Below are positions 1-5,732 of a stretch of DNA of 7,140 nucleotides, one piece after another. Source of the stretch: Acidobacteriota bacterium (GTDB lineage Bacteria; Acidobacteriota; Terriglobia; Terriglobales; Acidobacteriaceae). The position numbers were made by a program, and so were the translations under genes. How positions within the stretch are numbered: position 1 is the stretch's first letter; each line of letters starts with the position of its first letter. The DNA is taken from the NCBI GenBank assembly GCA_021810735.1, contig JAJZIF010000196.1:1-7140 (forward strand). Direction: 5' to 3'. Below the pieces are notes generated by a model. The model made no database searches. It had not been told where the DNA came from and was given only the letters and a program-made list of their open reading frames with translations.

Positions 1-843
1 ACCCGAGCGTTCGTCCGCAAACTGCGCAACGCGCTGGATGGAGGCCAGAAGATCGACGGTACGCACGATGACAAAGCGGTTGTTGTCGCGCGGCAGAACC
101 GCCTCATAGTTGGGAAACTGACCGGTCAGTTTGCGCGAAGTCAGGACACGATTGCCAACCTGGAAGTAGAGGGTCTGCTCATCGTCGGAGAAGTCAATGA
201 ATTCTTCCTCCGTATTGGCCAGCAGAGATTGCAACTCCGCCAACGCCTTGCGCGGGATCAGCAATCTTTTCTCTCCGCTGACGGCCAGATTTTCGCCTGT
301 CTTCTCGATGTGCGCGAGGCGATGGCCGTCGGTCGCAACCATGGTCAGGCTGCCTGCTTTGACCAGCAGCAAAGCGCCATTCAACGTATAGCGAGACTCT
401 TCGTTGGCGACGGCAAAGATGGTCTTGCCAATCATATTGCGTAGGACGGAAGCGGGTAGGCGTATGGCTCCCGCAGTAGGAAACGGCAAGACTTGAGGGA
501 AGTTGGCGCGCGCCATGCCTACCATTTTCGTATTCGAGCGGCCCAGCCGAAGCTGGACCCAGTGGTTCTCCATCAACTTGATGCCAATTTCTCCATCGGG
601 CAGCAGTTTGATGTAGTCGTACAATTTCCGCGCCGGAATGGTACATGCGCCGGGCTTCTTGACTTGGGCCGCACAGGAGGTGCGAATGCTTTGATCGAGA
701 TCTGTGGCTGTGATCGTCAGTCGATCCTGGTCTGCTTCCAGTAGAAAATTCGACAGAATTGGGATCGTCGTCTTGCGTTCAACAACTCCCTGAGTGGCAG
801 TCAACTCGCGCAGCAATTGTTGCCGATTTACGCTGATTTCCAT
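1..843 (-). CDS. dnaN: DNA polymerase III beta subunit (sliding clamp), 3' end outside window
   Basis: This is the ring-shaped processivity clamp that holds DNA polymerase III on DNA. I translated 281 codons from the ATG at 843 down to base 1; the family is about 365-380 residues, so all of domains I and II and the start of domain III are present. Recognisable stretches are GVVERKTTIPILSN (residues 19-32), ATDLDQSIR (46-54), VATDGHRLA (169-177) and the clamp hallmark GQFPNYEAVLP (241-251). The start at 843 gives the usual N-terminus (MEISVNRQQL) directly before the first conserved strand. An in-frame ATG at 894 would add 17 residues rich in Pro, Glu and Val. Neither start has a strong ribosome-binding site; 843 has GAGAG 7 bases upstream. 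The gene stands alone behind a 562-base gap, so it probably has its own promoter instead of being read through from dnaA. Confidence 0.97.
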   Translation of the reverse strand, partial: MEISVNRQQLLRELTATQGVVERKTTIPILSNFLLEADQDRLTITATDLDQSIRTSCAAQVKKPGACTIPARKLYDYIKLLPDGEIGIKLMENHWVQLRLGRSNTKMVGMARANFPQVLPFPTAGAIRLPASVLRNMIGKTIFAVANEESRYTLNGALLLVKAGSLTMVATDGHRLAHIEKTGENLAVSGEKRLLIPRKALAELQSLLANTEEEFIDFSDDEQTLYFQVGNRVLTSRKLTGQFPNYEAVLPRDNNRFVIVRTVDLLASIQRVAQFADERSG

Positions 844-917
844 CGCAGTACTCTCGACCACTGGTTTCTCCGGCTGGACTTCCAGGCTTGGCATTCAGAA
901 TCGTCTCTTTTCAACGT

Positions 918-1080: not shown

Positions 1081-1134
1081 CTAGTACTACTTCTAAACGG
1101 CATAAAAAATGAATATTTAAAATAGTAGTAGAAG
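1081..1134. repeat. two inverted DnaA-trio-like runs around an AT-rich unwinding core
   Basis: On the minus strand, bases 1134 to 1120 read CTT CTA CTA CTA TTT, which is GAA GAT GAT GAT AAA when the opposite strand is read 3' to 5'. On the plus strand, bases 1081-1095 read CTA GTA CTA CTT CTA. The two runs face each other across about 24 bases of almost pure A/T with two small G/C islands. The DnaA-trio (3'-GAT-5' repeats) is established as the single-strand binding element by which DnaA opens oriC in Bacillus subtilis, and the minus-strand run closely resembles it. A near-consensus DnaA box (1143-1151) lies 8 bases from the minus-strand run, on the side from which a DnaA filament would start. 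The plus-strand run lacks a correctly oriented box. Confidence 0.55.
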
Positions 1135-1142
1135 CAGATGCC

Positions 1143-1151
1143 AGTGGAAAA
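1143..1151 (-). promoter_or_regulatory. DnaA box-like site next to the trio run
   Basis: The minus strand reads TTTTCCACT, matching TTWTNCACA at eight of nine positions (last base T instead of A). It lies 8 bases (cagatgcc on the plus strand) from the trio run and points towards it, the arrangement expected for an origin-opening module. Confidence 0.4.
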
Positions 1152-1340
1152 TTGCATAACCAGGGAAAAACCAGCAAACAAGCGGCGGCATGATGCGCCC
1201 TGTTTTCTAAAACCGGGCAGTGGGAAAAAGTAAAACCGGTAAAAGTGGCACCCAAACCGTGGCAGCGCGGAAATTGAATGCCACGTTCTCCACGCTCTGC
1301 ACAGGCGCGACTTTCTCCTATGTTATTTTCTCGCACTCAA

Positions 1341-3874: not shown

Positions 3875-5293
3875 TTACTTGTTGAGCTGCTCCATCAAAT
3901 TATTGATCATGCGGTTCAGATCGGTGTCGGTGTGGCGCAGCTCGTCGATTTTGGCAATGGAATGCATCACGGTGGTGTGATGCTTGTCTCCAAAGTGGCG
4001 GCCGATTTCCGGTAGCGAAGCTTCCGTCAACTGCTTGGCGAGATACATGGCGATCTGCCGCGGCACGACGATCGAGCGGGAATTGTTCTTCTGTTTCAGC
4101 TCCGTGATCTTCATGCCGAACTGATCGGCGACGGCGCGCTGAATCACCTCAATCGTCACCTTGCGCACCTGGGTGTCGATGAATTGTTTGAGGCATTGCT
4201 GGGTGACGGCCAGCGTAATCTCCACGCCGTGCAGGCTGCACCAGGCCAGCAGGCGGACCAGCGCGCCCTCCAGCTCGCGCACATTGGTGCGCACGTTGGA
4301 GGCGACAAACAGCGCCACATCGACGGGCAAAGTGACGTGCTCGCTCTCCGCTTTCTTTTGCAGAATCGCGACCTTCGTTTCCAGATCGGGCGGCTGGATG
4401 TCGGCGATCAGGCCCCACTCGAAGCGATTGCGTAACCGATCTTCAATCTCCGCCAGTTCTTTCGGCGGACGGTCACTGGCGATGACGATCTGCTTCATGC
4501 TCTCGTGCAGCGCGTTAAAAGTGTGGAAGAACTCCTCCTGAGTGCGTTCCTTCTGCGCCAGGAACTGGATGTCGTCGATCAGCAGCACATCGACCGAGCG
4601 GTACTTGTCGCGGAAGCTGGACATGCGGTCGTAGCGAAGAGAGTTGATCATCTCGTTGGTAAACTTTTCGCTCGACACATAGCAGATCGAGGCCTGCGGC
4701 TGGTGCCGTTTTACTTCATGTCCAATGGCGTGCATCAGGTGCGTTTTGCCATTGCCGACCGATCCATAGAGAAACAGCGGATTGTAGGCCTTGGAGGGGC
4801 GCTCGGCCACAGCTTCCGCTGCGGCGCGGGCAAACTGGTTTCCATTGCCGATCACGAAGGCATCAAAGGTGTAGCGCGGATTCAGTTGCGCGGCGGTGTC
4901 CCAATCGAAGCGCGCTTGCTGCGGTGGCGCGGCTGGATTGCTGTTGTAGCGATTGCGCGTGGGGCTGGCGGAGCGTGTCGGTTGCGGCGCGAAGCCTCCA
5001 TCCTGGCGGACGCGGGGCGCGGGAGCTTCCTGCTCGACAGCCTCGAAGGAAACCTCGTCGACCTCCAGGCCGAGCTGGTCGACGGCTTCCAGGATGTGAT
5101 CGTTGTACCGTTCCCCGATGTGTTCAAACTCGCGCGTGGGCACGGTGACGACCAGAACTCTGCCTTCGATGCGGCTAAAGCGTGTGGGCTTGAACCATGT
5201 GTCGAAGGACTGATGGTTAATCTTTTTCTCAAGTGCCGTCAGAATGCGAAGCCAAGGATTGATGCTTGAGGAAGCTGTAGCGAGAAATGACAT
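3875..5293 (-). CDS. dnaA: chromosomal replication initiator protein DnaA
   Basis: This AAA+ ATPase binds DnaA boxes, opens oriC and recruits the helicase. It has 472 residues from the ATG at 5293, normal for the family. Domain I is at about 1-90 (WLRILTALEKKINHQSFDTWFKP) and a Pro/Arg/Gln-rich linker at about 90-135. The AAA+ core carries Walker A GSVGNGKT (177-184), Walker B LLIDD (237-241), sensor 1 near IASDRP (271-276), the arginine-finger region LRNRF (287-291) and sensor 2 NVRELEGAL (337-345). Domain IV has RQIAMYL (412-418) and the box-binding signature DKHHTTVMHS (436-445). Walker A has Ser where many DnaA proteins have Gly (GGVG), and the signature has His438 where E. coli has base-contacting Asp433. 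An in-frame TTG at 5335 would add 14 residues but has no ribosome-binding site; even the chosen ATG has only weak GAAAGTGA upstream. Confidence 0.98.
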   Translation of the reverse strand: MSFLATASSSINPWLRILTALEKKINHQSFDTWFKPTRFSRIEGRVLVVTVPTREFEHIGERYNDHILEAVDQLGLEVDEVSFEAVEQEAPAPRVRQDGGFAPQPTRSASPTRNRYNSNPAAPPQQARFDWDTAAQLNPRYTFDAFVIGNGNQFARAAAEAVAERPSKAYNPLFLYGSVGNGKTHLMHAIGHEVKRHQPQASICYVSSEKFTNEMINSLRYDRMSSFRDKYRSVDVLLIDDIQFLAQKERTQEEFFHTFNALHESMKQIVIASDRPPKELAEIEDRLRNRFEWGLIADIQPPDLETKVAILQKKAESEHVTLPVDVALFVASNVRTNVRELEGALVRLLAWCSLHGVEITLAVTQQCLKQFIDTQVRKVTIEVIQRAVADQFGMKITELKQKNNSRSIVVPRQIAMYLAKQLTEASLPEIGRHFGDKHHTTVMHSIAKIDELRHTDTDLNRMINNLMEQLNK

Positions 5294-5732
5294 ACTGTTT
5301 TCACTTTCAACGTTGCGGCGCGACTGCCAATGCAAACAAGAAATTCACATTGGGAGCTTGCTCTTTCAAAGCTAAAAAATCAAGCAAATTCCATGTCCAA
5401 TGTACGGGCCTGAAATCCAAAAGGGTGGTGCGAAATATTGACTGCGGCTTGTCCGATACTCGCTGGAAAGTGGTCGGCCTGGGACGGTCGGAGCACATGA
5501 AACGGGTTCTTCGGATGACACTAACGAAAGCCGATACTAGCACATTCATGCGCCGGTGGCAGCAGTGTTTTCTACACAAACTCATTTCTTTTCGAAACTG
5601 CACCAAAGGTGGTGAAAGAGCATCTCGGATGCCATATTTGAACGGATGGAACAAGATGTATCTCACAGAAGTTGGGAAGTGCTGAAAACCTTTTTACCCA
5701 AACCCGCATCCTGCTGACACGCCGTTGGAGAA
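5294..5732. other. gene-free region upstream of dnaA, presumably holding its promoter
   Basis: Small open frames on both strands (5287-5685 plus, 5307-5666 minus) overlap almost completely, give no recognisable protein and are not called. One site, TTTTACCCA at 5692-5700 on the plus strand, matches the DnaA box consensus TTWTNCACA at eight of nine positions. TTCTACACA at 5570-5578 and AAATTCACA at 5341-5349 match seven. An A/T-richer patch at about 5360-5392 lies 70-100 bases before the dnaA ATG and may contain the promoter, but no -35/-10 pair stands out. No trio runs and no strong hairpin were seen. The rnpA/rpmH genes often found next to dnaA are absent. Confidence 0.5.

Follow-up and report, generated by a model that had tools for sequence, protein, structure and literature searches.

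Do the origins of Acidobacteriaceae carry DnaA-trios for one strand only, or for both? The question is raised by a window of 7,140 nucleotides from an Acidobacteriaceae genome (the whole stretch of DNA that was analysed) in which, upstream of dnaN, two runs of trio-like triplets point toward each other across an AT-rich core. At the unwinding module known as the BUS, it is established elsewhere that DnaA binds to DnaA boxes and then assembles on the trios of one strand, whereupon the duplex separates. The sequence of the window and of its relatives suggests, with a probability of roughly one half, that the oriC unwinding region of Acidobacteriaceae is a BUS to which an inverted second DnaA-trio run has been added, and that this second run would be used after opening.

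The genes of the window follow one another on the minus strand in the order amino-acid permease, dnaA, ferritin-like protein, a 300-aa open reading frame, an intergenic region of 511 bp (1405-895) and dnaN; the ferritin-like gene and the 300-aa frame are what lies between dnaA and the origin with dnaN (5335-1, minus strand). The gene dnaA (3875..5335, minus strand) matches Bac_DnaA at 2.6e-73, and the best solved match of its product is the DnaA chain 8btg, which we take to be B. subtilis DnaA. Its listed frame starts at TTG, although translation more likely starts at an internal ATG about 14 codons downstream. The 300-aa frame between dnaA and the intergenic region has no Pfam match, and a search of the window against Rfam matched no family. 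Of dnaN (1..894, minus strand), recognised by its DNA_pol3_beta domains, the window holds the N-terminal 298 aa, after which the gene runs off the edge. This fragment is 100% identical to that on a contig of the MAG WH2.bin123 (L001), and the two intergenic regions differ at a few bases.

Read on the minus strand, positions 1151-1120 are TTTTCCACT-GGCAT-CTG-CTT-CTA-CTA-CTA-TTT. The DnaA box TTTTCCACT (1143..1151) has two mismatches to TTATCCACA and is followed by the 5-nt spacer GGCAT (1138..1142) and by the first DnaA-trio run, CTG-CTT-CTA-CTA-CTA (1123..1137), with a trio score of 10 of 10; the 3'-NAN-5' trios of this run, the predicted DnaA target, are on the plus strand. A weak partner box, TTATGCAAT (1151..1159, minus strand), overlaps the first box by one base and has three mismatches to TTATCCACA; at its position relatives have TTATCCAAATTTCCACC or TTTCCACTTTTCC. 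In the excerpted text of PMC8287927, the BUS rules are a box with at most two mismatches and at least three NAN trios within 16 bp of it, and a second box with at most four mismatches is present in 57% of predicted cases; the box, the five trios after a 5-nt spacer and the overlapping partner box all lie within these limits. Beyond the run comes the AT-rich core (1096..1122) of 18.5% GC, a figure that depends on the limits chosen (20.8% for 1096-1119, 9.1% for 1101-1122); the intergenic region (895-1405) as a whole has 46.6%.

A preliminary description of this DNA had placed the two runs at CTTCTACTACTATTT (minus strand, 1134-1120) and CTAGTACTACTTCTA (plus strand, 1081-1095), with the box TTTTCCACT (minus strand, 1151-1143) 8 nt from 1134 and a core of ‘about 13%’ GC. 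All of these letters are where it put them, and its GC content is roughly right given the range of 9.1-20.8%. Its first run is also correctly located, but in register this run starts one trio earlier, with CTG at 1137-1135. When both strands of the window were scanned, a single box position (at least 7/9) led into four trios scoring at least 8, and this is the box at 1143..1151. The mean number of such box-plus-trio positions in 200 first-order Markov windows was 0.36; no Markov window reached a trio score of 10, and none combined a trio score of at least 9 with a facing run of at least 9. By the same rule no box-plus-trio site was found upstream of dnaA (5336-5732), where a second origin had been considered. 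On its sequence anatomy, the region 1151-1123 together with the core is well supported as a textbook BUS upstream of dnaN.

On the far side of the core lies the facing run, CTA-GTA-CTA-CTT-CTA (1081..1095), which is made up of five plus-strand NTN triplets, against a BUS minimum of three trios, and has its 3'-NAN-5' trios on the minus strand. It scores 9.0 of 10, a value attained by 0.06% of 20,000 local shuffles (P ~0.0006). The window holds no box with at most two mismatches beside the facing run on its own side (within 16 bp, same strand). The box-like CTAGCCACA (1084-1076, two mismatches) touches the run but is oriented like the first box, and it is not kept in L002.

The recurrence of the facing run was assessed at loci anchored by a dnaN search of genome contigs, from which the best 80 of 405 loci were taken. 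The BUS was located without use of the facing side; the facing run was then sought 10-45 nt beyond the first run and scored over four consecutive triplets (C=1, T=1, third base A, G or T=0.5 each, maximum 10). Among these 80 Acidobacteriaceae loci, the best of the 405, a BUS was present in 70, nine of them placed by eye (L009, L023, L061, L062, L064, L068, L074, L076 and L079). The ten left out comprise L041 and L063, judged by eye, and L019, L044, L049, L051, L054, L066, L072 and L078, which have no BUS by the rule. At the 70 BUS loci (best 80 of 405), a facing run of at least 8 was found in 40, compared with 4 in direct orientation and a mean of 2.5 in shuffles (largest of 500: 8). With at least 9 required, the counts in this best-80 sample were 21 facing, 0 direct and 0.2 in shuffles; with at least 7 they were 55, 21 and 13.9, about fourfold over shuffles. 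Elsewhere in the same upstream regions, 4.1% of 1281 windows score at least 8, equivalent to 2.9 of 70. The gap between the first and the facing run is 23-31 nt in 36 of the 40 loci, again from the best 80 of 405, with a median of 27. An earlier pass over 60 of 64 rows (dropped were L041 and L063, without a BUS by eye, L029, which was weak, and the window itself) had given 36 facing runs against 3 direct and 2.2 in shuffles. Since the loci share ancestry, all such counts are of non-independent trials.

The same order supplied a further 60 loci, most of them at a greater distance (dnaN identity 53-77%). They were analysed under an altered rule, in which the offsets were widened from 10-45 to 7-48, the first run was shortened from 15 to 12 nt and a box of at least 7/9 was used; because the rule was altered between the samples, this is a second sample and not a strict blind test. 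By its rule 40 of the 60 have a BUS and 20 do not, among the latter L276, which is probably the same contig as L058; L257, in which a BUS and a facing run can be seen by eye, does not satisfy the rule and was left uncounted. A facing run of at least 8 was found in 18 of the 40, against 1 direct and 3.3 in shuffles (largest of 300: 8); for scores of at least 9 the count was 11, with 0 direct and 0.4 in shuffles. At the threshold of 7 the count was 29, against 10 direct and 14.8 in shuffles, about twofold over the latter.

The contrast between facing and direct orientation shrinks under a stricter count of YTD triplets. Three or more consecutive YTD triplets occur on the facing side in 31 of 70 loci versus 17 of 70 in direct orientation, and in 20 versus 11 of 40 in the second sample; five or more occur on the facing strand only (3 versus 0 and 7 versus 0, respectively). 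Facing scores below 8 are found in 30 of the 70 and 22 of the 40 BUS loci. The closest relatives of the window vary likewise: L001, L002, L003, L005 and L008 score 8-9, L007 scores 7, L009 has 7 at an odd place, L010 has 6.5, and L004, L006 and L011 have 6. In the upstream regions of relatives, conservation of the two runs is borne out for the first run with its BUS (70/80) and for many facing runs (40/70), but relatives as close as L004 and L006 score below 8.

Alignment with MAFFT, anchored on the first run and blind to the trio score, also showed conservation of the facing run. The aligned block reads TTAGAAGCAGT in 32 loci of Edaphobacter, Granulicella or Terriglobus type and GAAGTA.CAG.AGT in a second group, of 20 loci; a third set, of 26 loci, shows the facing run plainly in single loci and weakly in the consensus. 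The three groups were sorted by eye, and loci of the L009 and window types were left out. In L234-L263, from the second group of the order, a conserved TTTGATATAAG is present in the core directly before the facing run.

Outside the order the picture is different. Among 40 loci of the class, none of them from genomes listed for the order, 17 have a BUS, and at these a facing run of at least 8 occurs in 3, against 1.8 in shuffles, and one of at least 9 in 0, which is not above chance. The facing run therefore appears characteristic of this order, with the single-run form occurring nearby, as judged from this small sample of 17 outgroup loci. The neighbouring order to which G102 belongs has, in many loci judged by eye, a degenerate first run with a related block, AAGNAGTANAGTA, after it; this block could also be a -10 element of dnaN. 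Upstream of dnaN in L105, L107, L110, L113 and L183-L194, also from the order of G102, a block CTTTATACTT...AAAAAGCGAGTANAGTACG is strongly kept. These loci retain little of the first trio run, and the block may be an origin remnant or a dnaN promoter.

The preliminary description had also taken the site to be where the origin of this chromosome unwinds. The box, spacer, trios and AT-rich core beside dnaN, and the recurrence of this arrangement in 70 of the best 80 of 405 loci, uphold that view. GC skew, sampled in two complete relatives (ZG23-2 and T. roseus) as 20 stretches of 20 kb each, agrees roughly with the dnaN region, but the sign change does not fall at the exact site. In ZG23-2, where dnaN lies at 1.977 Mb, the sign changes 20-35 kb beyond dnaN: the skew is negative before the gene, remains just below zero (-0.017) at 1.9785-1.9985 Mb, is positive over 2.01 to 2.7 Mb and is negative again at 3.2 Mb and beyond, with small positives at 0.6 and 0.9 Mb. 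In T. roseus, dnaN lies at 5.214 of 5.228 Mb, 13 kb before the end of the record, and the sign change falls in the interval 0.035-0.12 Mb, no more than about 0.13 Mb away from dnaN; the skew is negative to 5.15 Mb, has the same sign at 15-35 kb and is positive from 0.12 Mb onward, and both arms contain single stretches of opposite sign. Across the 8-kb flanks of 51 loci, the right skew is above the left in 34 and a clean sign change is present in 8. The skew of the two complete relatives thus backs the region without pinning the site.

A further conserved element of the origin region is the palindrome GTTTTCTAAAAC (1202..1213), about 77 nt from the first trio. It is kept at 10/12 or better in 55 of the 70 BUS loci from the best 80 of 405, and in 52 of these 55 its distance to the first trio is exactly 76 or 77 nt; an exact GTTTTNNAAAAY is present in 30 of the 70 (shuffles 0). 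Because its outer positions do not covary, the palindrome looks like a putative origin site to which a protein dimer would bind. L057, L077 and L079, titled Verrucomicrobia or Rhodanobacteraceae, have an Acidobacteriaceae-type origin and a dnaN 73-76% identical to that of the window, and their titles look wrong. In some genomes of the order a second, diverged dnaN (42-46% identity to that of the window) lies away from the origin, at G002:C1:726823-727674, in G037:C4 and in G234:C8 and C12.

What, then, might select for the facing run? One explanation is that the BUS is of the single-run kind and that the facing run is the conserved site of another origin protein (a regulator, a nucleoid protein or a helicase loader such as DciA), which merely resembles trios. 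The absence of a box beside the facing run is consistent with this, as is the presence in the origin regions of the family of at least one further conserved element, the palindrome at 1202-1213; the related block AAGNAGTANAGTA in the order of G102, which could be a -10 element of dnaN, also fits. However, the facing run keeps its trio pattern although its letters vary from group to group (CTGCTTCTAA; CTACTTCTGTTACTTC), and a fixed protein site is disfavoured because it would be expected to retain its letters. DciA itself was detected in just one of four genomes searched, some of them MAGs. This explanation is rather unlikely.

Less probable still is a hairpin or cruciform, in which the two arms would pair on one single-stranded strand and the structure, not the trios, would be under selection. 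The arms are indeed complementary beyond chance (14.6, compared with 10.4 in shuffles), and over 60 loci a locus's own arms slightly exceed swapped arms, which reach 13.6 (P 0.0035); against partners whose dnaN distance is 0.3 or more, the advantage of own arms is 1.9 +/- 0.5 (SE). In 14 of 81 upstream regions the strongest inverted repeat, judged by eye, consists of the two runs, but in the window itself another pair is the strongest. The own-versus-swapped difference weakens to P 0.077 over 18 non-redundant loci, a partial Mantel test that allows for dnaN distance gives r -0.02 (P 0.64) for the distances of the two arms, and folding of four strands yields z-scores of just -1.1 to -1.6. Complementarity of the arms is thus only weakly lineage-specific, which makes a hairpin less likely than trios as the object of selection.

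Chance would be a natural suspicion for short, degenerate trinucleotide runs within an AT-rich stretch, the more so as many relatives score below 8. It is rejected as very improbable on the window shuffles (P ~0.0006), the Markov windows and both locus samples, in which 40 of 70 loci from the best 80 of 405, and 18 of 40 in the second sample, stand against largest shuffle counts of 8 in 500 and 8 in 300.

The facing run lacks a box in relatives too. At the 47 of 60 loci with a facing score of at least 7, a DnaA box of at least 7/9 lies beside the facing run, on the counting strand, in 1, against 1.8 by shuffling; boxes beside the first run are present in 47 of 47, partly by construction, as the BUS finder required box-like letters there. 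In the available text of PMC6669920, reversal of boxes 6/7 inactivates B. subtilis incC, and for this reason a box-less facing run should not start opening alone. A complete second, mirror-image BUS that opens the DNA independently from the other side, which the inversion of both trio runs around one core might bring to mind, is therefore rejected as scarcely credible, given a facing box at shuffle level (1/47 versus 1.8), none with at most two mismatches in the window, and the loss of incC activity on box reversal in the part of PMC6669920 available.

Since a trio run recurs on the other strand without a box, the simplest reading is that the second run is used after opening. DnaA would first occupy the two boxes, TTTTCCACT at 1151-1143 and the weaker one that overlaps it. 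The oligomer would then extend onto the plus-strand trios of the first run and melt the AT-rich core, a step proposed here by analogy with BUS sites elsewhere, for which it is established. As the bubble passes the core, the second run would become single-stranded, and a DnaA oligomer of opposite polarity could capture its minus-strand trios. The two oligomers might then keep the strands apart and present two opposed ends, one per helicase; this last step is the least certain. DnaA filaments on both strands had already been suggested in the preliminary description, and they remain a proposal here. The chances that the box-less second run is a landing site for such a second oligomer after opening are about even. 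The DnaA encoded in the window has I230 aligned with position 190 of 8btg, and I190 is an ssDNA-binding residue of B. subtilis DnaA in the portion of PMC8287927 available.

A search for the DnaD family (PF07261) found no member in four genomes, two of them MAG-derived, and the B. subtilis and L. lactis controls matched. As a DnaD family protein is missing from all four, the B. subtilis route to the second strand looks unavailable. It may be proposed, tentatively and at odds of perhaps one in three, that in this order the origin DNA itself specifies helicase loading on both strands, by box-anchored opening followed by a box-less oligomer on the second run, such that DnaA alone would mark both strands and no DnaD-like selector would be needed.

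The arrangement shares its core features with the BUS of B. subtilis oriC as set out in the excerpted texts of PMC8287927, PMC6669920 and PMC10721633 (DnaA-boxes 6/7 and DnaA-trios): a box, a short spacer, 3'-NAN-5' trios running away from the box and AT-rich DNA beyond, beside dnaN. The form described in those excerpts has one directional run, whereas here a box-less second run faces it on the other strand, about 27 nt away. The B. subtilis DnaD recognition element (DRE) also serves the strand opposite the DnaA-trios and has been proposed for the second helicase; in the text available from PMC10201434 it consists of the sequence complementary to the trios themselves, with DnaD as its reader, unlike the separate trio run beyond the core found here, in an order where a search of four genomes found no DnaD family protein. 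At the eTrio/DUE modules of Thermotoga maritima and the trios of H. pylori oriC2, TAG-type runs are bound as ssDNA by DnaA complexes, a binding that is predicted here, and in the available part of PMC10316083 those trios are described on one strand only. The same portion of that source describes opposed DnaA oligomers at one origin in the left and right DnaA subcomplexes of E. coli oriC, as is proposed here; there, the opposition is in dsDNA boxes beside the DUE, whereas here it would be in ssDNA trios flanking the core.

The facing run had been called unusual from the outset, and its excess over chance in two samples of one order bears this out. No description of a facing second trio run was found in the DnaA-trio and oriC literature searched (for example the excerpted texts of PMC10201434, PMC8235120, PMC10316083, PMC13220808, PMC10721633 and PMC6669920), which covered few subscription papers; supplementary BUS tables may hold unremarked cases. 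Within the same coverage, the DnaA-trio literature searched had no match for Acidobacteria.

If it is used, a facing strip on the other strand could help to account for the start of replication in both directions. A natural origin family that has trios on both strands, one run with a box and one without, suggests that the functions of box and trio are separable. Such origins make the question addressable with short DNA scaffolds and existing assays.
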